Source: Isoetes taiwanensis (Eukaryota; Streptophyta; Lycopodiopsida; Isoetales; Isoetaceae). From it: a stretch of 64,000 nucleotides of DNA. Shown in pieces: positions 1,536 through 53,712 of the stretch. The stretch is taken from positions 3,379,821 to 3,443,820 of the forward strand of contig JAJEKV010000057.1 in the NCBI GenBank assembly GCA_021234155.1, read 5' to 3'. Position 1 is the stretch's first letter, and each line of letters opens with the position of its first letter. The translations under genes were made by a program, and so were the position numbers. Below the pieces are notes generated by a model. It was not told the origin of the DNA, did not search any database, and worked only from the letters and a program-made list of their open reading frames with translations.

Positions 1536-1540
1536 CCACA

Positions 1541-7380: not shown

Positions 7381-7560
7381 AAAAAATCTTTTAACCGCCT
7401 AGATCTAATATCCCAATATTGGGTAACACCCAATATCCTTATATAGAACATTAGGCCTAGGCCTAGAACATATTTTATGAAAACACCCATATAGAACATT
7501 CGATATGGGGTGCTTTCATAAAATACCCCAACACCCCATACCTAATGTTGGACTCGACTT
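7381..7560. repeat. Hairpin-forming inverted repeats
   Basis: TATTTTATGAAAACACCCAT (7471-7490) pairs with the reverse complement of ATGGGGTGCTTTCATAAAATA (7505-7525), with two mismatches. The outer arms GAACATTAGG and CCTAATGTTG extend the stem. Small palindromes (CCAATATTGG, AGGCCTAGGCCT) lie just to the left. Confidence 0.6.
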
Positions 7561-8823
7561 TTGAGGCGTGCTTTTAAGTTTGCATGCAAAGCAGCTGTAA
7601 TCGCTCACTCTTCATTTTCACTCTTCGCTGTAACAGAACGCCATTCTATGGCTAAGATGAAAGTTTACCGCCGTGGTGCCAATGGAGGAGTCCGCTGCTT
7701 CCAGCCACCGCCGTGAGGGCACTAAACCAAGATTGTGGCCAAATTCTCTTGTCCGAGGTGAATCGGCCGCAAAGAAAAAGGAGCCGCAGCCTCATCTAAG
7801 GTCCAAAGAAGGATAGACCGTGGTGCATGCAACTCGATGAACGCCTTCGAGATGCACATTGAAGCTTCCGGGCGATGACCTTCATGTTCACCGATGATGC
7901 CTTCGCTCATGAACTTCTATCTTCTCGGCTCTATGGATTTCTACACCGATATATGGCTTTCTCGGCTACCTAGACAAATTTTTGTGTAAATGATGTTTTT
8001 TGTGTAAAGAAGTTTTGGATTTAAGCTTTTTCTAAGTGAACTTTTTCCTGTAAGCTCTTGAATGAGTAACTTATGATTCCAAATGTAAACACTTGATACA
8101 TATTATGATAATATATTACCGCTTTTTCCCTTTGTAATCGTTTCTCGTTTTTTATACCGCATGCAATATTTCTCCTCAACCCTAAACCCCGAAGTTGATC
8201 CTCCGTGTTTAACTTTGATTTTAACACAATAATAGTTCACCGGTGCCGTGGCAGGCAAAAGGTGGCTATAAAATAGGTTGTTACGTGCAGTTGTTGGCTG
8301 GGTTTGTGTGAGTTAAGTGGCTATAAAATAGGTTAAGTGCAGAGACTGATACAAATTAAGCATGATGAGAAACCAAAAGACTTTGATGTTAGAGTCTCTG
8401 AACTTGCAAGCAAAATAAGTCCTAAACCTGAACAAATTGCATAAACAAATGCAATGAACAAATTGCATAAACAAAGTGCAGAAAGTGCAGAAACAATTGC
8501 ACACACAAATGCATCCAAGGCATTTTGAAATCTGTGGTTTGAGAATAACATACAATGTTAGTTATCAATTACATATTCAATTGCACAATCTATTCTATCT
8601 ATTTCAATCTAATGAACAAAGTGCAGAATGCAATGAATGATTTTGAAATCTCTGGTTTGAGAATAACATACAATGTTTACAAGAAATGCATCAATATCAA
8701 TACAATGATTCCAAATCAATAACAAATCACGTAACATTGTAATCTGATAAAAGCAAAATCAGAAAGAATGTAAAGTGAGAAAAAGTTATATTGAATAAAC
8801 CAAGCAATTACAACAGATAAATG
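7561..8823. other. No gene recognised
   Basis: The stretch 7600-7950 is less AT-rich than its surroundings and could be an old first exon or promoter region, but I cannot support a product. The stretch 8300-8800 repeats short words such as GAACAAATTGCATAAACAAA (8430-8480) and AACATACAATGTT (8545 and 8662). Confidence 0.35.
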
Positions 8824-9470
8824 TCAAGAATACTTGTATTTCTTCAGAGTATCAACGGCTTTCTTGGAAGCCTTATCCGTAAAGTTAGTTAATGGATTGG
8901 CCCGAACATACACTTCCACATTCTCGCCTTCTAACAAATCCCTTCCAGCCATGGTTTTAGATGTTCAAATTAAGAAGTCACCATCTCTTCTAGATGGTTG
9001 ATAAGTGTTAGGGCATACCATCGTATGTGGATCGTTCTTAAAACCACGGTACAACATATCATCGATTAGCAATGTGTTATGATGCATCCATGCTCCCTTC
9101 ATTTCAGAATAAACCTTGCTCAACTCCTTCAACAAAATAGGCTTCCTATCAACTTTGAATGCCGTATTTGTGCACTTACCCAAGACCATGTAAACCGTAA
9201 GCTTTCTAACAAATTTTTCAAACATTTGATTCGTAATAAGATTAGTTGCAAAGTACGCTCATTGTTGTCCAAATGGCAATCTTGAAGTTATCCTTGCACC
9301 ACTCTAGAAGCTCCTTAGCCTTCTAACGGGCGCAATACAGCTATCTTTGTGTGATTAAGGTGCTTTAGTTCTGCACCATCCATGACACAACTTGGCAATG
9401 GCTCAGTATTCTCAAACAAATTTCAAAGAAAACTCCATCTAGCTCAAAAATCAAAAGCTTTTATGCTTAC
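8824..9470 (-). pseudogene. FCP1/NIF-type HAD phosphatase-like domain, broken
   Basis: Minus-strand pieces lie in the order of an FCP1-like HAD fold. KLLIFELDGVFF (about 9460-9425) stands at the place of catalytic motif I, with Glu where the first Asp of DxDGxL is expected. ELLEWCKDNFKIAIWTT (about 9318-9268) corresponds to the segment leading to motif II. KPILLKELSKVY and NTLLIDD (9225-9040) correspond to the motif III region, and GENVEVYV with NPLTNF (about 8930-8890) to the family C-terminus; the stop is at 8824-8826. Frame changes between 9425 and 9268 and an in-frame TGA after GDFLI (about 8962) interrupt it. It is the 3' end of the gene whose RING part lies at 10573-12497. Phosphatase activity of this copy is unlikely because of the breaks and the altered first Asp. 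Confidence 0.72.
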
Positions 9471-10510
9471 TTCATCCTTTTGGTACATGGAGACTTGAAG
9501 GGTCTGCTAAATACTTCGCTACGTTTAATTTTCTTCCTTGCAGCCATTAGAGCCCTTGCATTTCCTGGAAGGAAATGCTTTAAATAAACAAATACGAGAC
9601 ACTTCATACAAAAATAACAAAGAATTACCAGGTGAAACAGATTCTTGTGATTGTGTTCGATGAGATGTCTCCTTCTTTGTCTTCACAACCGACTACATGA
9701 TGAAATGGGAAGACTACCATGGGTTTCAATGGCCTTATTATCGCCTCACTGCACCAACAAACTTTGATTGACACAAAGTAGCCTCCCTATTGACAACAAG
9801 CGGACTGCCCACATTCAGTTTATTTCCACAAGGTGATGAAGCAGTGTCGCTCACATCTTTCGCATGTCGCGGTCTCTTTAAGTCTACAAGCATTACAGAA
9901 AGCTAAATTGACAACATGTAATAACAAACACATAAGTTTTGCAGAAACCTAGTTTGTCCAAACATGCATTACCTGGTGATATCATTGTCGTCTTTGGCTC
10001 ATTCTCTTCGTGAAATATCAACTCTTTGTTTTTACCTTCAGCTTCCACAGCAGTACCTATCTTTGATGAGTGGCCTTGAATATCTAGATGTACATAAATA
10101 AAAAATCATTGCTATGCAACAACATTTGAAAAGCTAGTCCATTTGAACATATAATTACCTGGATGACTCAAGATTGCAGTGTTTGGCTCAAAAGACATCA
10201 GAGTTGTACAGCTATCGTGCAATTCCAAACCAGTTGCTGATTGTCCTTGACTATCTGTGTTTTGCAAATGTGAAGAACATATACATGGTCATGCTTTTTA
10301 GAAGCTGCAATAAATCCTGCAAAGTAGAAAACATTTTTAGATTTGTTACCATCATTGTCCTTCTGCTCTTTGTAAGAAATAATGTCCATAGAACCCTTCC
10401 CAGTTGTTAATGCAAAGGCTCAAACGCCTCTCGATAAGTTTATGTTCCTTGGGATATGATATGGAGGCCGGGGTGGAGCTAACACCTTTCATTCTCGATT
10501 TCTCTGTTTC
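9471..10510 (-). CDS. Linker exons of the RING/HAD-like gene
   Basis: Short minus-strand open pieces end in clean donor sites. Examples are one ending at about 9628 (SVVKTKKETSHRTQ then CCTG|GTAATT), one at about 9975-10085 (ending ATCACCAG|GTAATG), and one at about 10158-10256 (ending ATCCAG|GTAATT). A basic stretch RKKIKRSEVFSRPFKSP at about 9535-9480 and KRPRHAKD at about 9880 look like nuclear localisation signals. Two exons share a pattern (QGHSSK...PKTTMISPG and QGQSAT...PNTAILSHPG), suggesting exon duplication. Exact exon limits are uncertain. I place them in the same gene by strand, order and splice signals only. Confidence 0.5.
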
Positions 10511-10572
10511 CATATGCAAGTAACATTCATTAAGTTATCTTGTGTGAGCTGAAAATAATGAATACAACCAAC

Positions 10573-12497
10573 CGTGCGAATCTAGGGTTATGCTAATGTT
10601 GGACTCCTGGCACCCCTTTAATCCAAGAAAAGACAGCCATGATTTTGACATGTTATATCCACAATCGGTATAACAACATATTGTAGAGCAACTGCAAAAA
10701 AAAAAACACTGTTAGAAAAATTCATTCAGAAAATAATGGCATGGGAAGATGCTACCTGAAATGCACTACGCAACATGCCACATGATATGCATGTCTACAC
10801 TCCACAATAATGATTGGCAAGAGCATATCATCCAATGTCAGTGACCTGTTACAAAATGGGCATGCTTCATTCAAATTAATGCTCAAATCTTCCTTCATAC
10901 TATGAACAACGACCGGTGTTTGGGTAGGCAAACAAGGATCGAACTCAAAAGGTTTGCACATGCTGGATCGAGATGCCAACAGCCTCATAAGGCAGGGCCT
11001 CAATTTGTTTAGCTGCTCCAACTCGACATCTCTAGAAATCTCTGAATTCAGTAAGTCATCGAGAGCTTGCTTCAAAGCTACACCCAATTCTTCAAGATCT
11101 CTTTCTTGCAAGTCAATTACTGCCTCAACACCCTCCTTCGCTGCACTTGAGAGCTTTGTGCACAAATCTTGGTACTTCTTAATCTCATTGGCCACACTAA
11201 CCTGCCTAGCTTCCAAACCTTTAATATTTTCTTTGATGACACCGCACTTTTCGCCACTTAGTTGCGCCGATAGTCGCCTTTGTTCACATCATGTTCTGCA
11301 ATAGAAATCCATTCCTCCAATATCCTCGACATCTCTAAAACACAAAGAGACACTAAATTAGAATATTGAATAAATTAGATAAACAATTGACTGCCATTAA
11401 CTTGCAGCTATAAGACACAAGTTGCAAGCTGTAACTTTGACCTATGGGACGTAAGCTTCAAGCCGCAAGTCGTATGATTGACCTATGACACACGCCAAGC
11501 CGAAGTCGCAATCGTGACCTATGCGCTACAAGCTTCAAGCCGCAAGTCGCGACTTTTGACCTATGGGACACAAGCTTCAAGCCGAGGTCGCAAATCGCAT
11601 GACACACTCTCTCACTATGACTGTGGCTGAATCTGCAACTACTAAGGCGTGGTGCACCATGGCTGAGACTGAGACTGTAAATAGTAAGGCATGACACATC
11701 TGCAACAAACAACTGTAAGCTTCCACCTGCAATTGCAACTGTGACTGGAAAGATTAAGATGGTAGTAAACATTAACTAGAACATGTGCTTAAGCTTGTAG
11801 CTGCAACTCACAAATGCATGCTTTTACCTATGAGTTAACTGCAAGTTCAGGTTTGACTTACAACATATACAAGCACATGCTTCTAACTATGAATACAACA
11901 ACGATTTTAGATTTAGCTAAGAATGTACTACAGAAAAATAAAAAAATAAAAACAGCAATCAAATAGTACCTGGTATTTTTTTTGCGTAATTGGCATCATT
12001 CACCTGGGTCTTACATGGCACATTAGAGCTAACATAGATTTGTGAAGTGGGCTTATCAACAAGCACTGGCGCAATTGGAGACATTGTCAACTGAGGAACA
12101 ACATTTGTTGTAACTTTTTCCAGCCCATCCTCATAATCATTGTTTGAAAGTGCTCTACTCTTTGCAGCTGACTTTGCATGCTTGTAGAAGCTCATCCAGT
12201 TTATTTCACGGCCATTGCAATGTAAGAGAAATGCTACTGCCAATGCTTGAGGCACCTGCCCTCCTAAAACCTTCTTACGATCATGTATTTTTGTATACAA
12301 TGATAGAAACTCTTCCTTCTTGTTTTCCTTCAATAATCTGAACCTATAACAAGACTTACCATTTACCTTTGGACCCCACATCTTTCGCATGTCATTCTCA
12401 TCAACATTCTTGTCCTCTGATTTATATAACTCCTTAAAGGTCAAACCTTTGCTGCTCAAATTTGGAATTGCATCGTTTGGTACTGCTTCCATGAGAT
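10573..12497 (-). CDS. N-terminal part of the RING/HAD-like gene: coiled coil and RING-like zinc finger
   Basis: There are three minus-strand exons. The first (12497-11970) has acceptor TGTTTACAG and donor ACCAG|GTACTA, and encodes an unrecognised region with LSSKGLTFKELYKSEDKN. The second (11334-10756) has acceptor GTGTTTTAG and donor TTTCAG|GTAGC. It encodes helical, coiled-coil-like sequence and then the start of a RING-like finger (CPFCNRSLTLDD, ECRHAYHVACCVVHF). The third (10691-10573), with acceptor TTTGCAG, continues the finger in frame with further cysteines (TICCYTDCGYNMSKSW). The finger residue order C-x2-C, C-x-H-x2-H-x2-C, C-x4-C is RING-like. A frame change near 11260 interrupts exon two. 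Earlier exons toward 13100 are likely but not resolved. The role is unknown; a nuclear protein is an inference. Confidence 0.6.
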
Positions 12498-13244
12498 CTG
12501 TAAACATATTAAGACAGAGTTTAAAGATTGGCTAGAATTAAAGAAATGCTTGAATCAAATGTAAATATTTTGTAACAATTGGCTAGAGACGATTTTGGTC
12601 CATAAGAGCTATTACAGTCCTATATTTTCCCTGCCTAGAAAGATGAACTCAGCAGCATGTAAAATATTAAGACCCAAAGATTATTCAACAAGTCAGCCTA
12701 CATTATTCACTTACACAAAGCATGTTCAAATAATTACATGAGGTATGCTAAAAATACTTAATAATTATGGTAAGAATTTAGAGAAGATCACGCAAAGTCA
12801 CTCAATTTATCTGAGCACTCAATATAAAGAATATGAATTAGGTCGAGTCCTCTTCTCTGCAAATTTAACTAGAGAATTAACAGCTTCAAATTTTATGCCT
12901 TATGGTGATTAAAACAAAGAGCATTAGTGTGAAGACTGAGAAGACGGCTAATGCAATAGAATAAGATTTAGAACAAGAAAAAGAACAAGAACGCATGATG
13001 CCTAAGAACAACCTCGATGGAAAAGATGGAGGAGAAAACTTGATGCCGCTTTTAGCCGTGGTGGCGTAGGTGGGACGTTGAATGATCGAGCTGTAAGAGT
13101 CGGCAAAGAAAAGAATTCCCTCCCTCCCATTCTTGCTATTTCCCGATCCCTCCCTCTCTCCGTTAGTTTCGGAAAATTCAAAATACCACCTGACATTCCC
13201 ACTATTTTTCTAACTACTATAGTAGTTCGAATTAAGACTTTTTT
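12498..13244. other. Upstream region of the RING/HAD-like gene and right arm of the transposon
   Basis: An intron precedes the exon at 12497. A less AT-rich stretch at 13000-13150 on the minus strand could hold the first exon and 5' leader. No product can be supported. Confidence 0.35.
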
Positions 13245-13268
13245 GATACACTATATTGTGCTTCTACC
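13245..13268 (-). repeat. Right terminal inverted repeat of the 11.7-kb transposon
   Basis: The minus strand reads GGTAGAAGCACAATATAG and then TGTATC. It is directly followed on the plus strand by CCACA, matching 1536-1540. Confidence 0.72.
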
Positions 13269-13273
13269 CCACA

Positions 13274-13640
13274 CATAACTTCGCAGCATATCCTCAATAA
13301 TGCGATTGGTACGTTCTGTCTGACCATCTGTTTGAGGATGATATGCCGTACTCATAGCAAGCTTGGTCTGAATAGTGGCAAAGAAATCTTTCCAGAATGC
13401 ACTTACAAATTTGGGGTCCCTATCCGACACAATTACTCGTGGCATTCCGTGTAATCTGAAGATTTCTTTGGCAAAAAGCAGAGCGGTATCAAAGGCTGTA
13501 TCCGTGGTACGACATGGCAAGAAACGAGCCATTTTCGACAATTTGTCGACCACAACCATTAAGGCATCATACCCCCGGAGAGTTCTTGGAAGGCCCACAA
13601 TGAAATCCATGGTTATCACTTCCCATTTGGCGTTGGGCAC
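13274..13640 (-). pseudogene. Integrase core, N-terminal part (gypsy element)
   Basis: The minus strand encodes WEVITMDFIVGLPRT (first catalytic Asp), VIVSDRDPKFVS (second Asp) and YHPQTDGQTERTNRIIEDML (catalytic Glu). The frame runs into the 11.7-kb transposon after RSYVW and the rest of the core is at 1535 leftwards. Upstream a frame change near 13650 separates it from the zinc-binding N-terminus. Confidence 0.88.
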
Positions 13641-13642
13641 GT

Positions 13643-14953
13643 CTAGAGGTTGTAGCTCACCCGATCCTTTAACGCTTCAGCCTTAGTTTGTCGGGCATAC
13701 CCCATTAATCGCTTAATGTATCTGGCAATGTCCTTTTTCATAGAAGGCCAAAAATAACTGGAACGAATCTTAAAGTAGGTTTTCATAAGCCTCGCATGTC
13801 CAGCTATAGGGCTGTTGTGGGTGTCGTGGAGGATTAGCTTACGCACTCCCGAGGACTCAGGTACACACAACTTATCCTTGTGATATAATAAGTTGCCCTC
13901 TTTCTTATACGCACGAAAGGCTTCGCGCTCCCTATCCGTGCGAGCTTCCTTAGCCAAACTATCCCAAATGTCACGGAACTCCTGGTCTGTGGCCAAGGTC
14001 TGCTCTATCTGTTTCCCAAACTCACTGGCGAGTGTAGAAATGGCATTACAATGGGTTCGGGTCACCAAGGGATGGCGTGACAATGCGTCCGCAACCACAT
14101 TGTGCTTGCCAGGCTTATACATAATTTCAAAATCATATTCTTCCAAGAATTCCATCCATCTTCTCTGGCGGAGATTGAGATTTGGCTGGGTGGATAAATA
14201 ACGGAGGCTTTGATGATCCGTATCCAACTGTAATCTCCTACCAAGAAGGTAGTGTCTCCATATCCGCAGGGCACGGACAGCGGCTAACAATTCCTGATCA
14301 TGGGTAGGGTATCGCTGCTCTGTCTCGTTCATTTTCTTTGAATCATAGGCAATAACCCACCCCTCCTGCATTAGGACTCCACGGGTGGCAATCTTACTGG
14401 CATCTATTGCCACTAGTTTATCCTTCTCAGGATCGGGCAATGTGAGAACTGGTGCTGATGTTAAAGCATCCTTAAGTTGCTGGAAACTGCCCTGAACTTT
14501 TGTCTTCCAGTGTTCCATCCAATCCCTCACTTTCTCATGCTTTGTGAGATTTGTAAGAGGGGCTGCGATCTTTGCAAAATCCTTTACAAATTTTCGATAA
14601 TATCCTGCTAATCCCAAGGAACTCCGGACTTCGGAAACATTCCCTGGAATAGGCCATTCTTTTACGGCCTCTATCTTTGCTGGGTCTGTAGCAATTCCCT
14701 CTGCCAAAATAACATGGCCCAAATAATCGACCTTCGGAGTGGCAAACTTGCACTTAGAGAACTTGGCATAGAGCTGATGACGCCTTAGCTTTTGTAGGGC
14801 TAGCCTAAGATGTTTCTCATGCTCCTCCAGGGTCTTACTATAGATGAGAATGTCGTCAAAGAAAATAACAACAAAGTCATCCAAGTATTGTCGAAAGACA
14901 TCATTCATTAGTCGCATGAAAGTTGCTGGGGCATTAGTTAATCCAAAAGGCAT
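13643..14953 (-). pseudogene. RT palm/thumb, RNase H and integrase zinc domain (gypsy element)
   Basis: An open minus-strand frame of 436 codons. It begins in RT with [12 protein letters not shown], then FFDDILIYS (the catalytic YxDD box, here FFDD) and VDYLGHVI. RNase H follows ([36 protein letters not shown]), then the integrase HHCC-like zinc region ([17 protein letters not shown]). It overlaps the next upstream frame at 14938-14953, where a frameshift breaks the RT. It ends at 13643 with a second frame change before the integrase core. Plant gypsy order RT-RNH-INT is kept. Confidence 0.9.
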
Positions 14954-15705
14954 AACTGTAAACTCATAATGCCCATATCTAGTGCGAAAAGCAGATTTAT
15001 GGATGTCTCCTCTTTAATCCTTATCTGATGGTATCCGGAGCGTAGATCAATCTTTGAGAAATACTTAGCCCCTTGCAACTGATCCATTAGGTCATCTGCT
15101 CTAGGCAAAGCATAGCGATTCTTGATGGTATGCCTGTTCAGTTGCCGATAATCAATACACATCCTCAGCGAGCCGTCCTTTTTCTTAACGAAGAGAATAG
15201 GAGCGCCAAAAGGCAAAACACTAGGTCGGATGAAACCTAGGTTTAGTAACTCCTGAAGTTGCTTCTTAAGTTCTGCCAATTCTGGAGGACTCATACGGTA
15301 CGGGGCCTTGCTGGTAGGCTTGGTACCCGGCTCTAAAGCTATTTCACATTCCACCCCTCTAAAAGGAGGGAGCTTCTGAATCTCATCCGGGAAAAGGTCA
15401 CCAAATTCCCGGAGAAGATGAGCAATCCCCTCTGGCAAGGTGTCGATTACTTGCTTTTGTTTAGCATCTGACTCTATGGAAGCAAGGCTAATGATGCAAA
15501 GGAGCTTTTCCCTGCGTATAGCTTTATCTAACTGCCTGATGGAGATAGACTGCATGATAGGGTTGAATGGTTCACCTCTGATAGTCACGCGGGTTCCATT
15601 AGCTGCGTTGAAGGTAACTTCTCTCTTCTCGCAGTCTATGTTGGCTTTTGCAGATGCCAAGAATTCCATACCAACAATGAGGTCATATTTGCCAATATCC
15701 ATCAA
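14938..15705 (-). pseudogene. Protease end and RT fingers (gypsy element)
   Basis: This frame starts at [14 protein letters not shown], the C-terminal half of the retropepsin. It continues through the connector ([15 protein letters not shown]) into RT ([34 protein letters not shown]), where DLRSGYHQ holds the first catalytic Asp. It changes frame at both ends relative to gag-protease (15702-15705) and to the RT palm (14938-14953). Confidence 0.88.
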
Positions 15706-17280
15706 TTCGCACCCAAAGCAACCGGTGCACCTGGCAACTGCATCTTAAGATTGATGCGGCGGCCATGGGTATGCCTGACCTTACCACTGGCTAGAGTAAC
15801 AGGTCTTGGTCGGGACCTTAATGTTTCAAGCTGTAAGACCTGGGCCATCCTAGGAGAAGCAAAGTTATGTGTACTTCCCGTATCCATAAGAATTACGAAA
15901 GGCTTACTGTCTACTTGACCTATGGTGGAAATGACAGCAGGCTGACTTTCCGCATTGCCGGTTTCTATAGCTGCAAGGATATGAGACGCACCGTGAATGT
16001 ACTCAGGAGCCTCCTCTTCGCCAGGTAAGGTCGACTCTAGATCGTCCCAATCGAGATCGGCCATGGCCAGCTGGGCAGTCTGCGTAACATAAGGACAATT
16101 GTGCATAAAGTGGCCGGGCCGCATACACCTGTAGCATGCCTTATCCCGGCGGAGCTGCTCCCGGGCCTCCTTAGGAATAGACTGTAAGAGGTTCCGTACT
16201 TCCTTACCGACATTGCTCTGTTTATCCGGCGTGGTGAAAGTAACTTTCTTTTCCTGGCGGCCATAGGAATTCTGCTGAGAGGGGCCCGGACTTGGCGACT
16301 GGGGTTTGTACGGTGTGGATGGCCGGGGCTGCGAGTAAGGAGCAGGACGCGGATACTGGTTTCTTGGTGTGTCCTCCTCGAGGCTCAATGCCTTAGCCTC
16401 AGCCTCCACAACTGATTTTGGGTCTATGGCTTTAACCATCCGTTTAATTGATGGGGCCAACCCTTCAATATAACCCTCTACGGCTCTCTTTTCATTCATA
16501 CCTGGTACATATAGCCTCAAGCGCATAAACTCATCAGTGTAAGCCTGAACCGTCATACCCTTCTGCTCCAACCTATAAAAGGTCTGAATCTGCTGGCATT
16601 TGTGCGCACGAGGCACATAATGCGACTTGAAGGCCTTGGCAAACTTCCTGAAGTTGCATCTGCTCCTGTCCAGATGCTTGGCCCTGGCATAGCCCTTCCA
16701 CCAAATACGGGCAGCTCCTGTAAGGTTGGTGGTGGCAACCTTTCCTGTATCCTTCTCCGTCATGCCATAAGACTTCCCAAACTCCTTCATCTCGTCCAAC
16801 CAGGATTCTGCATTTAGTCCGCCTCTGGATTTCCCATCAAACTGGGCCAATTTCCTATTCTTCCATATACTAGTTATAGTCAGATCAACCGCCTTTCTGC
16901 GGTATTCCTTATCCCGGCGCTTTGCATGGTCACCAGCTGATACCGATGATCCAGAAGACACCGAAGTGGTTGAGCATGAGGAAGTGGCACTATCCTTAGA
17001 AGAACTTCGGCGACGCTTAGCATGAGGCCTCCTTGGTGCAGTACGTGATCGCCTCCGGGGAGATGGTCATTGTCAGTGCAGTGGACTTTGCGGTGGTAGC
17101 GGAGGTAACTCCGGTCCATCTTCCCTCGGGTTTGTCATGCGGTGGGTTGGCATGCAACACATAGGCTTGTAACTCGCCTAACTGCCTTTTCATTAACATC
17201 AGTTCCTGTTCGGGTGTGAGTCTACTAGCATTTGAAGGTGTTTGCCAGGCGGCGTTACGTGCACCGTCTAAATCGAGCAT
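15702..17280 (-). pseudogene. Gag with zinc knuckle and protease active site (gypsy element)
   Basis: The frame from 16961 to 15702 contains the capsid-like region (FDGKSRGGLNAESWLDEM, GAARIWWKGY), a CCHC knuckle (CYRCMRPGHFMHNC at about 16135-16090) and the aspartic protease active site (ILMDTGSTHNFAS at about 15892-15855). Upstream the same protein continues as a basic serine-rich stretch, with an N-terminal open frame starting at 17280 (TPEQELMLMKRQLGELQAYV) joined through a frame change near 17030. Gag packages the RNA and the protease processes the polyprotein. A frameshift follows at 15702. Confidence 0.85.
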
Positions 17281-17500
17281 GAAAAAGGTATAAGCATATT
17301 TATAACATATAAATTTTTACAAATTTTATCATGTCGGACAAAGGGTAGAGAGAGAACATGAGGGAAATTTATTATTATAAGAGGAAAAACTTTGTTATTA
17401 CAGTTTCACACCAAAAGTTGTTACAGGAGTATTACACAAAAACAACATTGAGCTCACAAACAGCATGAAAAAAAAAGAAACGAAACTGGAAAGACCCGGC

Positions 17501-17958
17501 CTAGGGGTTCGCAAAGGAGTACAGGATCGAGTAACGAACACTCTCACGCACAGCCCTAACGAGCTTGTAGCGTGCCCAGGCCTGGACAATTACTGGTTGG
17601 TATTCCCACGTTGGGCTAACAATGAGAAGATTGAAAAGCCTTCTCAAAGCATAGAAGAGTTGCCACAGGTGGTCGTTAGCGTCCTCGAAGGCTTCGTGCC
17701 TGGTCATGCTCCAGTAGTCCCATGTGCGGCACAGAGTTTTCTTCAGGTCCTCAAAAGCTCTGTCCCTGAGGATATTAACTATCTCCATCCCTTTGGCTGG
17801 ATCATAGGGTTCTCCTGGTGGCGGGGGTTCCATCTCGTAACCTTCATCCCATTCTGGATATTCTCCATATCTCTGGCCATAGTCCTGCTCGGGCGGCCCT
17901 GGATCCTCCCTCCTGATCAGATCTGTAATCCTTTCTTCATATTCCAGAAGTGTCTCTT
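17501..17958 (-). CDS. Unrecognised ORF between gag and the H3-fold region
   Basis: Open from an acceptor-like site (TTGTCTTGCAG at about 17968-17959) to a stop near 17501. It has an acidic start (EETLLEYEERITDLIRRED), a proline-rich patch (MEPPPPGEPYDP) and a helical, aromatic-rich half (LWQLFYALRRLFNLLIV). No family recognised. It could be the last exon of an upstream accessory gene of the retrotransposon. Base composition matches the neighbouring ORFs. Confidence 0.45.
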
Positions 17959-18182
17959 CTGCAAGACAATGGCAATGAATATAGAGTGTTGTATAATTTT
18001 TTTTATTTTACTCTAACTTCAATAATTAGAAGAACTTATCATGGAAAAGAACAATTGTATTCCTCGATACCGTAATCACAGTCGATCAGAAAAAGGGTAT
18101 ATCATATTATAGAATGGCTAAAGAATTTACCAAACCAAAATTTTACAATCATACGCAATACAAAAATGCGTAGTGCAATTAT

Positions 18183-19583
18183 TTAAGAACTAGAGTCTCC
18201 CTCTTCATTCGTAGGCCTAGGAGGTGGTGGAGGCGGTCGGTGTCGCAGCAGAGTCACCCCGGGGTCTACTGTGGCAGCCGCAATAGATGCAACCTCTGGT
18301 GGATAGGCAACAGCCAATGGGGCTGCCGTAAGGAGCTTCATGCTCATCCAGGGTGCAATGTCTTGGCCCAAGGCCATCAGGGCGAGATCCCGTCGCACGA
18401 GTACATAAGTAAACGTACGATAGGGAAGCTTCTTATGCCCGGCCAATGTGGAGAGAGCACGGAGGGTCCACCATGAAGCTTCAGCCTCCGGTCCTAGATC
18501 TCGGGCTATAAAAAGAACTTGGCCCTGCCGAAAAGCTGATAAGAAGAAGCGAGTAAGGTGGTTTCCCAATACCTTTCCTTGTGGGGTCTCCGACGTGGCC
18601 ACTTCCTTATCCAAATCCATAGGGACTTCTTCTTCCTTAAGTTCCTGTTGCTCCTCCTTCACATGAGTAGGATTATGATATAAATCCTCTCCCTCGTCAT
18701 CTGACCCGGAGGGAACCTCAACCATATTGATATTTGGGACGTGAGGTCCCATAGCCGTGAAGGCATCTGGTGAAGGCTGAGAGGCCGGCTCCTGCATCAC
18801 CAAGTCCCGAAGCCGTAGCAATGTCTCGGCGGGTTCTATAGTCTCCTGGCAGAACTGGAGCAGCTGCTGAACCTCCGGAGGAAGCTCAATAGAAGTGAAG
18901 TCGATGAAATCGTCCATACAATACTCCGCAAGCTCATAGAGCACATGGTCTTTACGCTTGCGTCTAAATCCGGCCACCATGTGATAAGTCCAGATAATAT
19001 CATCCAAGAGAAGATATTCTTGCCCTTGGTGATAAATAACTGGAAGGGCATCCAGCCCTGACAAGCCTACAGCTTGCTCACGGCGCGGTGGCAGCTCTTC
19101 CGCCAGCTGCTTCCAACGGGCAAAGTCGCCCATGCCTATGTGTTCGTCTTCCCCCTCCTCAGAAGACTCAGGCAGTTTGCCTTTCTCTACAGGCAAGGTT
19201 TCATCCTCGACGTATTGGTCCATGAGGATGGCTAGGGCGAAGGCAACCTCAAGATACTGCCGCCCCTGGTGCTGCACAAAGGGCAGGTGTTTGCCCCATC
19301 GGAGCTTCCCCTTCAGCACATCATATGCATGGGTGTCTCCCGCTAGCATCTCCCGGACTACCTCCCGCTCCAGATACAGTTGGGGAGGATCCCCAAGAGG
19401 AATACACAGAGGGAGCATCTCCTCCATGTAGAAGTCTAGAAAGCCGGCATAATCCGAGTGCCGCTGCATGTTGGTAATGAGGTCTAGGCGCTGGCATAGC
19501 AAGGGCCGCAACAGGTCGAAAGGGACTTGCAGATCCCAATGTTCTCCGTCTTGATACCATGCGAGAAGATCAGCGGCGGCCAT
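18183..19583 (-). CDS. Unrecognised 466-residue accessory ORF in the gypsy element
   Basis: An intact minus-strand frame. I choose the ATG at 19583 (MAAADLLAWY) because the 18 codons before it look like untranslated sequence. The protein is acidic with two related segments, LPFVQHQGRQYLEVAFAL and LPVIYHQGQEYLLLDD, suggesting an internal duplication. A Glu-rich low-complexity region (EEQQELKEEEVPMDLDKE) and a proline run near the C-terminus (RPPPPPPRP) follow. It has no signal peptide or membrane segment. It lies between the H3-fold ORF and gag in the same orientation. It is not gag or pol and I do not recognise it; a captured host gene or clade-specific accessory protein are both possible. 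The long uninterrupted frame next to a broken pol is notable. Confidence 0.6.
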   Translation of the reverse strand: MAAADLLAWYQDGEHWDLQVPFDLLRPLLCQRLDLITNMQRHSDYAGFLDFYMEEMLPLCIPLGDPPQLYLEREVVREMLAGDTHAYDVLKGKLRWGKHLPFVQHQGRQYLEVAFALAILMDQYVEDETLPVEKGKLPESSEEGEDEHIGMGDFARWKQLAEELPPRREQAVGLSGLDALPVIYHQGQEYLLLDDIIWTYHMVAGFRRKRKDHVLYELAEYCMDDFIDFTSIELPPEVQQLLQFCQETIEPAETLLRLRDLVMQEPASQPSPDAFTAMGPHVPNINMVEVPSGSDDEGEDLYHNPTHVKEEQQELKEEEVPMDLDKEVATSETPQGKVLGNHLTRFFLSAFRQGQVLFIARDLGPEAEASWWTLRALSTLAGHKKLPYRTFTYVLVRRDLALMALGQDIAPWMSMKLLTAAPLAVAYPPEVASIAAATVDPGVTLLRHRPPPPPPRPTNEEGDSSS

Positions 19584-19637
19584 GGCGCTAGAAGGGAGGA
19601 GGAAGCAAGAAAAACAGAGAGAACAATTGGAATGCAC

Positions 19638-19803: not shown

Positions 19804-20223
19804 CTAAGGACGCTCCCCCCGAATCCTACGGGCGAGGGCTAAATCCTTTGGCATAATCGTAACTCTCTTTGCGTGAATCGCGCAAAGGTTAGCGTCACCA
19901 AAAAGTGCCACCAGATAGGCTTCAGCAGCCTCTTGGAGCGCCAAAATAGCAAAGGTCTGGAAACGGAGGTCGGTCTTGAACTCCTGCGCGATCTCCCGTA
20001 CCAGCCTCTGGAAGGGAAGCTTCCGTATCAGAAGCTGGGTGGACTTCTGAAACTTGCGGATTTCCCGCAAGGCCACGGTACCGGGTCGGTACCGATGGGG
20101 CTTCCTTTGTGGGGCAGCTCCAGGCACGGTCTTGGCCCCAACGGCTGGCCGGGATGCATCCACTCGCTCCTGCCTCCGATCCGAGCTCGCCTTCTTACCA
20201 AAGGCTCCGACTTCTTCCTGTGC
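19804..20223 (-). CDS. Histone H3-fold ORF inside the gypsy element
   Basis: The minus-strand frame is open from 20223 to the stop at 19804. It encodes the full H3 core in order: [19 protein letters not shown] (aN), [20 protein letters not shown] (a1), [20 protein letters not shown] (a2), [20 protein letters not shown] (L2/a3) and ARRIRGERP at the very end, as in H3. Loop 1 has no insertion, so it resembles canonical H3 rather than CENH3. The normal modifiable tail is absent; before KPHR stands an unrelated stretch ([20 protein letters not shown]). It overlaps the upstream coiled-coil ORF in another frame and has no good ATG of its own. It is therefore probably the C-terminal domain of that ORF after a frame change, or a spliced product. 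Nucleosome incorporation is unproven. Confidence 0.88.
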
Positions 20224-20978
20224 TTAATAGTGGTGTGCTCGGTCGGTATTGGTCCCGGGCCACTCCCTGATGCCCCTCCATCCTGCGGGTTTAGCTGGTC
20301 CTGCCGAGCCCTCTCCTCGCATTCGAGCCTCTCCTGTTCCTCCCGGAACTCCCGGGCGCTCCTAAGGTTTTCTTCAGCCTGAGCTACGTTACGGCGAAGA
20401 AGTTCAACATGGTACCGATGGGGCCGTTGGCTCATATCAATCTGGATCGTCGTTAGATAATCCAGACTGATATCAGGGATCGGGGCTCCCCACATGAAGC
20501 TCTGGGAAGCTTCATGCCATTGGTACGGGGGAACCTCAATTGCCCTGCCATCTATGACGGCAAGTCCGTCCCCTAAGTACCGGTACTCCCTTCCCCGAGC
20601 CGCCGTATCCGCTCGCTCAATCTCCCGATGGTCATCTTCTTTAGCCAAACCTCTGATGCGATCGGCCTCTGTCCTGATGTCCTCCTCCTCAGTATGCCCC
20701 TCTTGTTCGGGAGGATAGAACTTAATCAGCATCATGACCATGTCATGTTGCTCCACGATGGTGTAAGAGAGCTGGCGAAGGTTCAGCCGGATCAGGAATG
20801 GCTCCGAGAAATGGTAGATAGAATAGGGAATCCTATCATTATTCTCAAACCGGTTCACCAACTCGTCCAAAAGGATGTCGATGAAAGCCGGGTCGGTAGC
20901 CATGTACTGGGCGATCATGGCATAAATCTCCACTATGCTTAGGGTAGAAGGGTCCGGGACGCTCTTGGTATTGGCCAT
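20028..20978 (-). CDS. Coiled-coil accessory ORF upstream of and overlapping the H3-fold ORF
   Basis: I choose the ATG at 20978 ([13 protein letters not shown]). The first ORF after the 5' LTR leader encodes an unrecognised N-terminal region ([35 protein letters not shown]), a charged middle and a coiled coil ([20 protein letters not shown]). A basic segment ([19 protein letters not shown]) follows near 20180. Its frame runs on to 20028 inside the H3 sequence, but there it reads nonsense. The meaningful reading switches to the H3 frame between about 20223 and 20120. A single indel that broke an original fusion protein is the simplest explanation. No known family is recognised for the N-terminal part. 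Confidence 0.6.
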
Positions 20979-21757: not shown

Positions 21758-21769
21758 CCATCGATACCA
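21758..21769 (-). promoter_or_regulatory. Primer binding site of the gypsy element
   Basis: One base after the LTR CA the minus strand reads TGGTATCGATGG, whose first seven bases match the initiator-Met tRNA primer site common in plant LTR elements (TGGTATC). This fixes the inner LTR boundary. Confidence 0.65.
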
Positions 21770-21770
21770 T

Positions 21771-23336
21771 TGTGGACGCTCCTCGATATATATCACTCCT
21801 CGTTAGATACATACGAGGACTTTCCCTCCCATGGCGACCATCTCGCCATTTGCGGCCCCCTCCATCTAACCCGGCCGCCTACATAGAGACGCCGGTGAAG
21901 GGACACGGAGGGGTCATTCGGCCCACGCCTTCGATGGGCTCCTACGTCGCGGAAGCATGAATACAAGGGTTAGCACACAACATAAATCATATACATTTAG
22001 CCACCACGAAGGGTGGCGCATCCATCCAAACATTAACAACAAAAAATATGCATCTAAACTAAGAAAACGCCCAAAACCCAGGTTCTACCCCGGCTCAAAC
22101 TCTAGTGGGGAGCGGCGGCCCGGTACTGGTCTCGGGGAGATCAGCCGGACCGAATCTTGGCATGGCGTTGGGCGGCATAGAACATCGGCTAGGGTTGTCC
22201 ACTCCATCCGCCTCCTCGTACACACTTTGCGGATGGGTCGATTCACGCCATGGCCGCTATAGCCTTCCTGAGACTTGAGACTCAAGGTATCACCCTTTGA
22301 GCCTACTCCGTGTTCATGACACACAGTCCGATTCCCCTTCCAGATCACGGTGGTTCCATGGGTGAGCTAGAGAATACGTGCCGCGATCAGCCCCCCCCCC
22401 AAGATCCGCACCCAGACTTACTCACCCTAATTCTACTCAAAGTGCATGGTGCCCCATACGGTCACACCACTACACCCAGGGGAGTGTCGGACCCATACCC
22501 GGCCCTCTACGGACCACGCCATCGTGCCTAGCCCACCAGGAGTCCCAGGAGCCTTTTATGCTCGTGCAAGACCCCATCCCCTACTTCACCATCAGGTCCC
22601 TTGTCCTGGTGCTAAGCCGGACCATAGCGCCTATGACCCGTGGGCTCTTGTGCACAAAGGAAACTAGTAGGGTGTTAAAGGAGTACTAGGAGCATTCTAT
22701 ACTCAAGCTCAGAGGCCTCTACCTCCCCCTTTTAATCCCTGTTTACTGGAACTACTAAACTAACTCATAGAGACATTCGACCATCCCATAACAGAGCATC
22801 ATTCATAATTGAAAAGTATTCCTAATTACCAAAGAAGGGTTAATCTCAACCCAAAACTAGCCAAAAAGAATACTAGAGTATTATTCTACAATTTGCAAGT
22901 TAAACTACCACTAACCGAGTTTCGGGCCGGACCCGTTGTCAAGGGTGCTTCCATAGTCTTTATCTTGATCGGGTAGCAACATGTGTAGAGGGTGTCTTGG
23001 CGATTGGGGAATGTTCAGCAACTGTGCTTTGAGCGCTTAGCTGCTCCTTGGTGCTGGCGGGGTCGAAATTGGGGGCAGGATGGGGGTGGCGCTGCCTTGG
23101 GTGGCTCAGTTTAGAAACCCCCATGCTGGCCGCTCAGGTCATGCCAAATTTTCCTTCCCACCATTAGGTGACTTAATAGCAAGTATTTAGATAATTATCC
23201 TTTATAATTAATTTAACATAGCTAATTAAATCCCTTGTGGCCAACCCCCTAGGTTATCATACCCCAGGTGGCGTATCTATACCGAGTGACGTGTCAATAT
23301 ATTTATACGTACACCGTATAATTACTTGGAACGTCA
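21771..23336 (-). repeat. 5' LTR of the gypsy element
   Basis: About 1566 bp, beginning TGACGTTCC at 23336 and ending CCACA at 21771 on the minus strand, followed by the primer binding site. Its start matches the partial 3' LTR at 1-156. The outer flank is CAAAA at 23337-23341; the matching target duplicate would lie outside the window. Confidence 0.75.
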
Positions 23337-24019
23337 CAAAAAGCAAATTGGTCATCCAATCACTGGTATCCCTATTGTTTTTAAAAAGCATGTATGATAT
23401 AGCATCAGACAAGCAACGTAACAAGCTTTGAGGATAAGGATTTGATCATAATGTACTAGCCCTATTTAAAAATTTAATACTTGTTTCTATACCGTAGTAC
23501 CATAAACTGCATAATCCGTATGACAGAGTGTCTCATGCACGAGCTCACATAGATACAAGTTACACAATATAAGATAAATCCATAGGTAACATCAATGCTA
23601 AGTATGCTATTAAGAACTAAGACAAATCAGAAACTAAAAACATATGTCGCCTCACATTGTGCATTCTGGGACAATTACGGTTCATGAGTTCAAATTTATT
23701 GCCAAGACTAACTCCGCTAAACGACATTGAACGATTGAGTTCGAATTTGTACTCAATAACGATTGAAGTTATTTGTGAAGAATATTTTAATCTAGAACAA
23801 CAAATATTAGATGTTAACGTTAGCTCATGATGACTATGGCTTGCCATAACATTATATGTTTAATAGTAATAATATAAAATTTTTGCCGGGAAATAGTTGG
23901 AAATAGCTCACCTGACAGAAAACAAAAGTGTTGTTCAGAAGGCAACTGGTGGTCGAGAAGAACCGCATCACAGGTCTGGAGACCCGCACGCAGCACGTAG
24001 AAGATGGCCTTGGCCTGGC
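23337..24019. other. Flank of the gypsy element, nothing recognised
   Basis: AT-rich sequence without a convincing coding frame or RNA gene on either strand. Confidence 0.4.
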
Positions 24020-28440: not shown

Positions 28441-29200
28441 GCGTAACAACAGTCACCGTGCAGAGCTCTATGATTGGGGACATCGGGCCACATGTATTTC
28501 GCAATCGGTCGAGCCCGCCCTTCTTCAGATGGGGTCGAGGTTTGGGGCCCGGTCGTCTCTTTGGCGACTGAATGACTTGGAGCAGTGTGTAAGGCATTCT
28601 TAGCACGCACTTGGGTGAAACCTTCAGTCCCCTATCAGATTTTGCCGCAGAAATCGGATTCTTGCCGCTTCACGGCAGCCCTTGATGGACACATCGCCTA
28701 TTTTCGAAAAGTGGTTAATATGGGTGATGCTCGGCTCCCGCACTGGCTTACGCCAGGGGCAATGGGCCCAGCCGCTCGGGCCCTGTTGGAGGGGTAAGAG
28801 AGATGAGTGGTTCGCCAGATGGAATGTACAGGAGCATAGGTGCGTCGCAGGTGGACCACGAGAGGCCGATCGTGGCGGCCCCTCTGGGAGTACCTGGATG
28901 CTTGCTTCCTTGGCAAGCTCTGGGACCCCCGCGCTCTAGAGCAGGTCAAAATGGCCCATTACAAGGAGCACATCAACCCCGTGTTAGCCCGGGCCCAGCT
29001 CTCTACCCGTTCCCGGTACCCCCGAAAAAGCAATGACTCATTGCCTCCATTCGCCCGAGTGCCCACCATCTTCGAGATCGAGGCGGGGTGGATTGGGAAG
29101 CCCCGCGGGAGACCGGGGCTCTGTCGGTCTTTGTCAAACGGGTGCCATTGAGGATGAGTCTCACACTTTCCAGAGTTGCCCAGCATTCAGTCAGATCCGG

Positions 29201-31484
29201 GCCTGATATAAAGGCTCTTATTGAGGAGCTTAAGAAGCAAGAGAAGGCAAAATCAGTAGTAAATTGTGGATTTGTTGAGGTGGAGAATGACCCATTTCAG
29301 CAAGAAGAAGAGATTGGAGAAGTGAATGCAGTTACAAGATCACAAAATGTGGTTCAAGAACCAAGAGTAGTGCCGATAGCGGAGAAGACTAAGACCACTT
29401 TTCCAAAGGCTTTGAAGGTGTCAGCACCTAAGAAGGTGCAATTTAATGTGCTGCCCACAGAACAGTTTCAGTCTATAGCAGAAAATCAGCCCATAGTGAT
29501 GCCTCCTATGGTGGATGAGGAAATGCAAAATGAAGACGATGTGATCAGCCAAGTTTTGGCCACTAAAGTGACACTTACTTTGGAGCAATTGATGCATTAT
29601 TCTCCAAATTTGTTGCAAGAGTTAGGAGGAAGAACAAAATCAGAAATTTCAGTCCAACAAATCATCTCAAATGATACCAATAAGAGTAGAATGGAGCCAC
29701 CAGCCCGGCAATCCAAGGATCCAAGGCCATTTCTTTGTGATGTGAGTATTAATGGATATTTAATCAAAGACGCCAACATAGATACTGGCAGCGGAGTGAA
29801 TGTAATGCCTTACCATATAATGCTTCAAGTTGGATTGAAAATGATGGAACCGACAACTGTGATGCTCAAAGCATTCAATCAAATGAAGGTGCAACCTATG
29901 GGAGTCATAAGAAATGTCTTATGCAAGGTCTATGAGATGGAAGCAATCTTGGATTTCATGGTTTTGAAATTTCCAGAGAGTGTGCATGCTGAAACTTATA
30001 CTTTGTTGCTGAGTCGTACGTGGTTAGATGCCGTACAAGCTGAGACTTCATGGAGGAAGCGTGAAATGAACATCTTTCAAGGAGAACACAAGGTTACTAT
30101 AGATCATCCTCTGAAATCAGCAAAAGGTACCTTTCTTTGCAATCCTTCTTTGAGCAGCCCGCAGTTAGAAATCAGCAAAGAGAATGCTATGGTGTCAGGG
30201 CAGCAAGGTCTTAGTTGTTTTCATGTCTTGGAAGTGGGTGACAGGGAAGATAAGACTTTGTACAAGTGGTTAAAAGGTACCCAAATTTCAGAAATATGTC
30301 ATTTACAGCAGCAAGTTACAGATAAGTATATCCAAAGACTTGAAAGTATTAGTGAAGGTGAGTTACAAGAGACTCTTGTAAACATGCAGGAGGAGTCCAT
30401 TCAAAGACCCATTGGGGAGACTTTATTTCAGCAAGGTATTGATCAAGATCAAGTAGAGATGTTGATTTTGACATCAAGCATGGATGGGGTCAGCAGAAAT
30501 CAGCACACTATGGAAGGACAAATGTATTTTGATGGTGCATTCTCTAAACTCAAGAATTATGGAGGTGTAGGAGTATTTCCGATATATGGGCATAAGAAGA
30601 AGATTGTTACATTGAGTATACCATGCAATGCAAGCAGTAATAATGAGGCTAAATATCATGCACTTATTCAAGGGATGACTTTGGCACAGAAGAAGCATGT
30701 TGATTGTTTGACTATTTTTGGAGACTCTTTGTTGGTGTGTCAAAAACTTATGGATCAATTTCAGGTTTTAAGTGCTAATTTGAGAGGCTTACATCAACAA
30801 GCCATGGATTTGAAGTCCTATTTTCAGCAATGCATTGTGGTACATGTTCCAAGGGAGCAAAACAGTGTGGCGGATGCTTTAGCACAATCGGCAATGGTGC
30901 AAGCAGCTTGGTGGCATGTGCAAATTCAGGAGGATGAGGTAAATCACATCAGTCCATGTTCATTACAGTCACCACAGTCACCACATTCACCACATTCATC
31001 ACCAGAACCACATTGTCATTACAGTCACCACATTCACCACAGTCATCACCTGCACCACATTCATTACAGTCGCTACATTTACCACAGTCACCACATTCAC
31101 CACAATCACCACAGTCATCACAGTCACCACATTCCTCACCACACTCACCACATTCATTACAGCCACCACATTCAGTCAAGAACATCAATATTTCTCAAGG
31201 CAATCAAGAAGAATTGGTTACTATTGGAGGCGATCTTACTCAAGGAGGAGCGTGATTTGATATCTTTGTTACGAGAATTCAGAGATGTTTTGGCAAGACA
31301 TTACAAAGAATTGAAAGGCATTCCACCGGAGGTTGTGGTTCATACCATTGATTTGAAACAAGGATCAAAACTAGTCCAACAAGCTCAAAGGAGAATGAGT
31401 CCAGCAATAGAGGAGCAAGTAAAGGTTGAAGTCATGAAGCTTTTGGAGGCAGGATTTATTGTACCAGTGCCAAATTCAGATTAG
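29201..31484 (+). pseudogene. Gag remnant, protease, extra RNase H and RT N-terminus of the Tat-like element
   Basis: The open frame carries a charged gag-end region and a retropepsin with active site NIDTGSGVNVMP (about 29778-29812). A second RNase H follows: MYFDGAFSKLKNYGG (about 30522) gives the first Asp, SSNNEAKYHALIQGM the Glu, IFGDSLLVCQKL the next Asp and NSVADALAQSA the last acid. All four acidic positions are kept. After a 240-bp His-coding minisatellite the RT connector begins (LREFRDVLARHYKELKG, about 31270). The frame ends at a TAG where the family normally has Trp (after VPNSD), so it looks like a single G-to-A change. Confidence 0.82.
30950..31185 (+). repeat. In-frame CACCACATTCA-type minisatellite
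   Basis: Imperfect tandem units built from CACCACATTCA and CACCACAGTCA keep the polyprotein frame open and encode Ser/Pro/His and then His-rich sequence (HHSHHSHHIPHHTHHIHY style). Related units are also at about 34400-34470 inside the 3' LTR. Confidence 0.85.
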
Positions 31485-33076
31485 ATCAGTTCTATTGTAC
31501 CAGTGAGAAAGCCAAATAACTCAATCCGAGTATGCATTGATTACAGGGATCTCAACAAAGCTACCAAAAGAGATCATTTTCCTACACCATTCATAGACAC
31601 TTTGCTGGATATTGTTGCAGGAAATCAGGCCTATTCTTTCTTGGATGGGTACTCAGGATATAATCAGATCCAAATCTATCCACCATATCAAGCAATGACG
31701 GCTTTTCGAACACCTTTTGGCATCTATGCTTATAAGGTATTACCTTTGGCCTTACAAATGCTCCAGCCACATTTCAGCGAGCTATGACATATGCTTTTCA
31801 TGATATTTTAGACTTTTTGAGAGTCTTTATAGATGACTTAACAGTATTTTCTAATCCAAGAAGGGATCACTTGGATCATCTCAGAAAAGTTCTTGAAAGA
31901 TGCCGTCTGTATGGTATAAGTTTGGATCCTGCTAAGAGTATTTTCTTCACTAGAGGAGGAAAACTATTGGGCAATTATGTTTCAGAAAAGGGATTACAAG
32001 TGGATCATGGTAAGATTGCAGCCTTGGAGAAGGTCAAGCCACCTACAAATGTATCCCAAGTGAGAAGCTTATATGGCCAACTCAGTTTTAGTAGGAGGTA
32101 TTTGCATAATTTTGCTAAAGTAACCCAGCCACTTGTGGATTGTATGAAGCCAGGGCAGCATTTTAGATGGAAGGAAGATGCTCAAGAAGCATTTGAATGG
32201 TGCCTCGCACAATTAAAAGAGAGAACTTTGCTGATTCCTCCAAGAATGAGTGAGCCATTTCATTTATTCTTTACAGTTTGGAAGCAAGCTTTGGCTGTCA
32301 CACTATGTCAGAAAAATCAGCAAAAGCATTATGATGTGAATTACTATGCTAGCAGGGTGTTAACTCCACAAGAGCAGAAATGGACTCATGTGGAGCATCT
32401 TGGGTTAGCATTGAAGTGGGCCTTGAACAAATTTAGACATTATCTTCTTCCTTCACAATGGAATTCAGCAAATGTACAGTATGTTTACATTCATATGGAT
32501 GTGAACCCGTTGCCATGCATTTACAACAAGACTGTCCAAGATCCTAAGTTTACAAGATGGGCTCTTATCATACAAGAATTTGAGTTGAAGTATGTTAAGA
32601 TGGCTCAAGGAGCTCATAATCCAAGTGCCTATTTGACTAGTGGTGCTGAAATAGAGGAGGAAACAGACCAGCAAGTAGCATTTCAGGATAATGGAGTATT
32701 GCAAGGGTTCATTGAGACCGTGGATCTTTGGTATGCCAATATATACAGGTATTTACAAGATCAGACTTATCCTTCATCATTTTCAAAGCAACAAAAGCAT
32801 GCTCTTAGAGTGCAAGCAGCTGATTATGTGGTGCATGAAGCTATTCTTTATAAGAGGACTATAGAAGGTCTCTTATTAAGGTGTGTTGCTGGTCAGCAAA
32901 CTCATGATTTATTGCAGCAAGCACATGATTGTCGGGGGCATTTTACAGCCAGAACCACAGCTAGGAAGATCCTTCATTGGGGATATTATTGGCCAACTCT
33001 TTACAAGGATACTAGAGACTTTGTTAGCAAATGTGAGAAGTGCCAAAGGCATAAACAATTAACAGGCCACAATTAA
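31485..33076 (+). pseudogene. RT, RNase H and integrase zinc domain of the Tat-like element
   Basis: It resumes after the stop with SIVPVRKPNNSIRVCIDYRD, FLDGYSGYNQI (first RT Asp) and FGIYAYKVLP. A frameshift near 31785 follows, then VFIDDLTVFS (the catalytic box, FIDD). The chromovirus-type RNase H follows (YYASRVLTPQEQKWTHVE; the first acidic region FFTVWKQALAV is degenerate). The integrase zinc-binding segment (HDCRGHFTARTTARKI, CEKCQRHK) comes next. It stops at 33076, just before the integrase core. Confidence 0.83.
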
Positions 33077-33077
33077 T

Positions 33078-33998
33078 ATGCCATTCCATCCTATTTTGAG
33101 TGTTGGTCCATTTCATATGTGGGGATTAGATTACATTGGGCCTATCAATCCTTCATCTTTCAAGGGTCATAAGTATATCTTGGCAGTCACATGTATGTTT
33201 ACAGAGTGGGTAGAAGCAATTCCAGTAAAGCATGCTACAGAAGATACCACAGTAAGCTTTCTTTATCATAATTTAATTTCTCGGTTTGGTGTTCCAACCA
33301 TTCTTTTGTCTGATCGGGGAACTCATTTCATGGGAAAAGTAGTAGCTCAGTTAACAGAAAAGATTGGTGTTCAACATGTGCAAGCTTCTGCTTATTATCC
33401 ACAGGGCAATGGGCAAGCTGAGTCTACTAACAAAATTCTGAAAGCTATCTTGGCCAAAACAGTGAAGGATAATCAAAGAAATTGGCATGAAGCCTTGATA
33501 GGTGCATTATGGAGTTTCAGGTGTACTTACAAGTTGGCTATAGGATTTACACCATTTGAATTGGTTTATGGAGTGCAAGCTGTGATGCCTATTCATTTGG
33601 ACATTCCTTTGTGTTCATTTGTGGAGTTACCTTATTATGAGAATTTAGGAGAAGTTCCAACTCCAAATCAAGTGCATAATAGGATGGATGATTTACTGCA
33701 ATTGCAAGAGATGAGACAGGAAGCAGCAGACTTCAATATGAGGCATAAACAGAAGGTAAAGCTTATCAAAGACAAGTTACAAGTTGTCAATCCATTTGAG
33801 GAAGGCCAATTGGTGTTATGCAGGACCACTAAGCAGCATCTATCCAAATTTCAAAGCCCATGGGAAGGCCCATTTCTGATCGATAAGGAGGTACCAGGTG
33901 GGGCTTTCTACTTGATGACTCCAGAAGGGGAATTGTTGCCTAATCCCAGAAATGGCAAGGATCTCAGGCCTTACTTTGAAAGAGAAGTGCTGTTCTAA
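33078..33998 (+). CDS. Integrase core and C-terminus of the Tat-like element
   Basis: An uninterrupted frame of 306 codons. WGLDYIGPINPSSFKGHKYI and LLSDRGTHFMG carry the two Asp, and YYPQGNGQAESTNKILKAIL the Glu of the DDE triad. A C-terminal region follows with FQSPWEGPFLIDKEVPGGAF and DLRPYF-like ending (LRPYFERE). No chromodomain follows, in line with the Tat lineage. The frame is intact but separated by a stop from the zinc domain, so a functional integrase is unlikely. Confidence 0.88.
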   Translation: MPFHPILSVGPFHMWGLDYIGPINPSSFKGHKYILAVTCMFTEWVEAIPVKHATEDTTVSFLYHNLISRFGVPTILLSDRGTHFMGKVVAQLTEKIGVQHVQASAYYPQGNGQAESTNKILKAILAKTVKDNQRNWHEALIGALWSFRCTYKLAIGFTPFELVYGVQAVMPIHLDIPLCSFVELPYYENLGEVPTPNQVHNRMDDLLQLQEMRQEAADFNMRHKQKVKLIKDKLQVVNPFEEGQLVLCRTTKQHLSKFQSPWEGPFLIDKEVPGGAFYLMTPEGELLPNPRNGKDLRPYFEREVLF

Positions 33999-53707: not shown

Positions 53708-53712
53708 AAAAA

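Follow-up and report, generated by a model that had tools for sequence, protein, structure and literature searches.

Copies of a chromodomain-bearing Ty3/gypsy retrotransposon family in the genome of the lycophyte Isoetes taiwanensis encode the core of histone H3 behind a further protein region. As judged from the pattern of change among the copies, this H3 fusion belongs to an amplified family as a conserved gene and not a dead one-off, because H3 occurs in many copies, an ORF with a predicted long helix (ORF A) lies upstream of it in every copy examined, one-frame fusions of the two persist and the H3 core has a dN/dS of 0.034. We consider it probable, at roughly 0.6, that the captured and fused core enters host nucleosomes in place of H3.

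The window, i.e. the whole stretch of DNA analysed, comprises 64,000 nucleotides (GenBank assembly GCA_021234155.1, contig JAJEKV010000057.1, positions 3,379,821 to 3,443,820). Within it the H3 ORF lies 3' of the 5' LTR and 5' of gag, on the same minus strand of a chromodomain-bearing Ty3/gypsy element, which consists of the following features:

21771-23338, minus strand: 5' LTR, TG..CA, 1568 bp; its first 156 bp match window positions 156-1
21758-21769, minus strand: putative primer binding site adjoining the LTR, from the sequence beside the LTR end
20028-20978, minus strand: ORF A, which encodes the N-terminal domain of the fusion and its predicted long helix; precedes H3 in all 44 copies
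19804-20223, minus strand: histone H3 ORF lacking a start codon; its final 99 codons and the stop (about 20103-19804) make up the core
18183-19592, minus strand: ORF B, accessory, before gag; from the ORF list, without Pfam relatives
17501-18007, minus strand: ORF C, accessory, before gag; from the ORF list, without Pfam relatives
15702-17316, minus strand: gag with the first part of protease, divided between two frames (17017-17316 and 15702-17066)
13251-15744, minus strand: end of protease, RT, RNase H, integrase zinc-binding domain and start of integrase core, in three frames
1541-13269, no strand assigned: later insertion inside the integrase, outside the element proper; 11.7 kb, 22-bp TIRs, 4-bp duplication
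759-1540, minus strand: last part of integrase, with the chromodomain (ORF 759-1130)
1-156, minus strand: start of the 3' LTR, which leaves the window; aligned with the beginning of the 5' LTR it shows 88.75% identity (160 columns)

Pfam searches recovered Ty3_capsid, Retrotrans_gag and zf-CCHC on 15702-17066, RVT_1, RT_RNaseH, Integrase_H2C2 and rve across 13251-15744, and Chromo on 759-1130 (1.7e-8). Thus gag, protease, RT, RNase H and integrase follow in order between the LTRs with a chromodomain at the integrase end, as expected of a chromovirus, the class that the preliminary description of this DNA had assigned. The best PDB match of the chromodomain is to those of CHD1 (9.8e-6); one tryptophan is kept in the alignment to Chd1, and the remaining two cage aromatics of HP1 are presumably absent. 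Given that the integrase frame is continuous across the insertion at 1541-13269, whose TIRs are alike at 19 of 22 positions, the chromodomain belongs to the same element. The insertion holds ORFs of its own, including 10752-11288 with weak RING-type matches. The 5' LTR had earlier been ended at 23336; its TG..CA limits correct this to 21771-23338. Differences between the two LTR starts (1-156 versus 23183-23338) all fall in the first ~73 bases, the other ~83 being identical, and because of this confinement no age is drawn from the pair. Beyond ORF A and H3, the ORFs of the element (B, C, gag, protease, RT, RNase H and integrase) are spread over several frames. Searches of the 64-kb window for Rfam families and tRNA genes found none. 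The window further contains a second Ty3/gypsy element on the plus strand (29037-33998), with an extra RNase H-like domain (RVT_3) before RT; in Ty3/gypsy elements an RNase H-like domain usually follows RT. At 43967-54555, two repeats that are 97-99% alike, with pieces in shifted order, surround a divergent RT ORF (48009-50084, minus strand), an arrangement that brings to mind a Penelope-like layout.

The H3 ORF (20223-19804, minus strand) spans 139 amino acids from stop to stop and matches solved H3 chains with E-values down to 8.7e-55 as well as the Pfam Histone family (8.4e-43), which rules out a chance ORF. Its core corresponds to positions 37-135 in H3 numbering and ends with RIRGERP and a stop. 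A gapless alignment over H3 positions 37-134 shows 11 differences in 98 positions (88.8% identity) from chain 7ux9_E, named Histone H3.3; chain 1aoi_A differs from the core at 13 of 98. Together the structure, Pfam and alignment matches establish an H3 histone fold, so that the earlier claim of such a fold with this ending, between the 5' LTR and gag and in their orientation, is confirmed. CENH3 has a diverged fold with a longer loop 1; judged against H3.3 only, the gapless 98-residue alignment with its 11 differences rules this identity out. The canonical tail (with K4, K9 and K27) is not recognisable in the 40 residues before the core, where 3313 of 5000 shuffles reach an equal local score, and the proposal that the tail has been replaced is in keeping with this result.

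ORF A, from its ATG at 20978 down to 20028, overlaps the H3 ORF, which is read in a different frame. The first ATG in the H3 frame comes no earlier than residue 124 of 139; hence the window H3 would have to be translated either as the C-terminal end of the upstream protein or from an unusual start. Below position 20230 or so, ORF A and H3 are read in different frames, and in this sense the window copy is broken. A programmed -1 frameshift was rejected for this copy, the sole heptamer of the searched type being in the wrong phase for -1 slippage. A single-sequence model of ORF A has a mean pLDDT of 44 with one confident long helix (residues 188-229); that of ORF B has a mean pLDDT of 35. The upstream ORF had been described as a coiled coil overlapping H3 in another frame: the overlap was found as described, and the coiled coil is plausible for the one confident helix but unproven. 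ORF A has no Pfam or PDB relative. A profile of 13 N-terminal parts matched nothing in the PDB at E-values of 0.1 or less and, in Pfam, nothing beyond a weak tRNA-synt_1c match in 2 of 13. ORFs A, B and C showed no resemblance when compared with one another, ORF A had no match in the genome contig collection, and no relatives of ORFs A and B were found among viral contigs, from which the H3 query drew one distant match (38%).

To examine further copies, the H3 sequence was searched against the whole assembly from which the window comes (1,658,258,908 bases). This gave 9352 first-look candidates, possibly including host H3 and chance matches, of which the 150 best-scored are 89-100% identical to the query (E <= 3.6e-69), with one internal stop each in 16 of these 150. 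The 44 places examined comprise the 30 best (L002-L031, L002 being the window), three stretches of 10 kb (L032-L034) and a further 11 short loci (L035-L045), most of which stood at the bottom of the ranking. Selection of the last 14 was manual and took in four that had been listed with a stop, which makes stop rates among them meaningless. Since all copies were found through H3, these counts do not give the share of the family that carries it.

ORF A lies upstream of H3 in all 44 copies, and in 17 of them, the window not included, a single frame stays open through both as far as the H3 end, as expected from the earlier suggestion that they were once a single fusion protein. This number excludes L022 and L038 from an initial 19, their frame stopping before the H3 end, and the nearly complete L043 is likewise uncounted. 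The fusion measures 408-420 amino acids in 13 copies; a complete one-frame fusion is missing in 27 of the 44, and 39 read through to the usual H3 end. Of the 33 loci of sufficient length, 32 have ORF B after H3. All three 10-kb copies have an LTR related to that of the window, a leader, ORF A, H3 and ORF B in this order, followed by ORF C and gag in two and by RT in one; L032 shows only the start of gag, and in L034 the similarity ends within ORF B.

Pairwise Nei-Gojobori estimates for the H3 core in the 30 copies (435 pairs) gave pN 0.0186, pS 0.402 and dN/dS 0.033; for the 181 pairs of greatest distance (pS 0.45-0.75) dN/dS is 0.027. With all 44 copies (946 pairs) the values are pN 0.0216, pS 0.432 and dN/dS 0.034, and the 14 later copies alone give 0.048. 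These ratios are too low by an unstated amount because copies were ranked by H3 similarity; such ranking, however, cannot yield a pS of 0.4 with a pN of 0.02 from neutral change. Window and L017 differ in the H3 core by 31 synonymous and no non-synonymous changes. Across the 13 whole fusions, dN/dS is 0.063 in the first hundred residues, 0.114 in the next hundred, 0.223 in the helix part, 0.198 in the linker and 0.030 in the H3 core, the first region including some residues upstream of the start in L018 and L030. For ORF A in 33 copies the values are 0.099, 0.165 and 0.322, the N-terminal part being less constrained than in the 13 whole fusions, and ORF B by thirds gives 0.122, 0.246 and 0.174 in 33 copies. 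On these sequence comparisons, all parts of the fusion gene are under purifying selection. Core histones are themselves among the slowest-changing proteins of the host.

These values bear on the view that the H3 piece was carried along and amplified without function, as a passive capture. Transposons often carry captured host sequence, the copy in the window is broken, and in fungi hAT elements spread H3 copies that were later inactivated, according to PMC6710886. Against this stand the dN/dS of 0.03-0.05 at pS above 0.4 and the one-frame fusion kept in 17 of 44 copies. In a neutral simulation of the window core, chance accounts only in part for its conservative changes (P = 0.0065), with P = 0.06 for the count of positive-scoring changes; a stop was expected in only 39% of runs, which makes this a weak test. 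The preliminary description had named an H3 piece absent from other family members, or a dN/dS near 1, as marks of a dead capture; neither was found among the copies, and its suggestion that intact copies might keep ORF A and H3 in frame was followed up with a positive result. We regard passive capture as nearly excluded.

A comparison of 33 copies reveals that positions 54, 86, 87, 89, 102, 105 and 124 share residues unlike those of 7ux9_E and are invariant, while at each of positions 107 and 125 a single copy deviates. Because the copies share one set of changes relative to H3.3, their H3 looks like the product of one capture; the shared changes may have arisen in the element or come from a host H3 variant. 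K53 and A96 appear to us to be of the plant type. Plant H3.3 genes contain introns and the element core has none, which suggests that H3 was captured from a processed transcript. Two groups of copies can be distinguished, with Y (25 copies) or F (8) at position 41 and Q (25) or D (8) at position 59; the F41/D59 group comprises L019, L023, L027-L031 and L033, and the seven of its copies whose linker was inspected all have AHKA instead of ARKS there.

Positions 87-90, which we take to face histone chaperones (others presumably face H4), are FAIL in all 33 copies. Retention of this stretch might be expected if the fusion served as a decoy that ties up H4 or the chaperones or modifiers of H3 without staying in chromatin. 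Such a decoy would not need arginines 49, 63, 72 and 83, which we assume to be DNA-facing; yet each of these is kept in 31 to 33 of the 33 copies, and we hold a decoy to be quite unlikely.

In copies readable there, some 60 basic residues take the place of the tail and include a near-constant stretch, for example KHRRK.VARK(S/T)GSQYKEKLKT. This stretch is missing in one of the 44 copies; in the ARK of the other 43, A is kept in 41, R in 29 (H in 11, Q in 2, L in 1) and K in 42. ARKS also occurs around K9 and K27 of H3. Whole linkers do not match the H3 tail significantly, the ARK stretch included: with L017 an equal score was reached by 1231 of 5000 shuffles, and with L004 by 3229. The basic linker with its KHRRK-like stretch, and the position of the gene ahead of gag in the transcript, would also suit a part of the element particle, in which the H3 core, through its basic surfaces, binds or compacts element RNA or cDNA or aids nuclear entry and never enters nucleosomes. 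Mere nucleic-acid binding would not demand such constraint, including at the positions presumed to face chaperones and H4, and we think a particle role unlikely. A further possibility, to which we give little credence, is that the ARK(S/T)-like linker of an element-made H3 variant is modified in the manner of H3K9 and read by the integrase chromodomain; nucleosomes made by the element would then direct where new copies go, or label old ones.

Our preferred reading is entry of the fused core into host nucleosomes, on the ground that so constrained a core would be one that meets H4, DNA and chaperones. We propose that a chromovirus family took up an intron-less H3.3-like coding sequence, whose core became fused behind a protein of the element itself, so that the product would consist of an N-terminal domain, a long helix, a basic linker and the H3 core, the canonical tail being gone. 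This fusion would pair with host H4, be loaded by host H3 chaperones and replace H3 in nucleosomes, with the element domain projecting where the modifiable tail would be. Plants silence transposons by marking histone tails. Two benefits, each more tentative than nucleosome entry itself and rated about equal, can be envisaged: chromatin unable to take K4, K9 and K27 marks might permit escape from silencing, or the fusion might be an anchor that holds element proteins or DNA on host chromatin. Should this role be correct, a mobile element would have a direct route to altering nucleosome composition. The family makes it possible to test whether transposons influence silencing through replacement of H3 rather than avoidance of its marks, and offers chromatin work a natural tail-less H3 fusion.

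A literature search on retrotransposons with histones or accessory ORFs and on lycophytes found no histone-encoding LTR retrotransposon in the titles and abstract beginnings of a collection without preprints and most subscription journals. Like the plant chromoviruses, whose clades include Tekay, CRM, Reina and Galadriel (PMC9033089), the element has gag, protease, RT, RNase H and an integrase with a C-terminal chromodomain; unlike them, it has three ORFs before gag, one with H3. Orchid Ty3/gypsy elements are described in PMC9289625 as having acquired a 2-ODD (RNA demethylase) ORF, and the section text on 15 domains in that screen of 121 angiosperm genomes names no histone. As in the present family, numerous Ty3/gypsy copies there retain a domain taken from the host; the domain itself differs (2-ODD there, H3 here). 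Fungal hAT elements amplified H3 in Pseudocercospora, Cercospora and relatives, and H3 amplification is also reported for Pyrenophora tritici-repentis (PMC6710886). There too H3 was captured and amplified with a mobile element, but that element is a DNA transposon with copies inactivated by RIP, whereas the retrotransposon fusion is under purifying selection, with a dN/dS of 0.034 and 39 of 44 copies reading to the H3 end. Single H3s are encoded by DNA viruses, among them xenomavirus and the Dishui Lake phycodnavirus, and according to PMC9145170 their fold is as a rule 73-89% identical to host histones; they are likely to enter host nucleosomes. The 88.8% of the element H3 refers to one solved H3.3 chain and not to host H3. 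The same source gives an N-terminus of about 170 residues in two phycodnavirus MAGs and TAIL or SAIL at the chaperone site of single viral H3s, where the element copies have FAIL. As far as this source goes, the element thus shares with the viral proteins a single host-derived H3, an altered or longer N-terminus and I89 in the chaperone site, and differs from them in lacking a recognisable canonical tail, in its element domain and in belonging to an LTR retrotransposon family resident in a genome.
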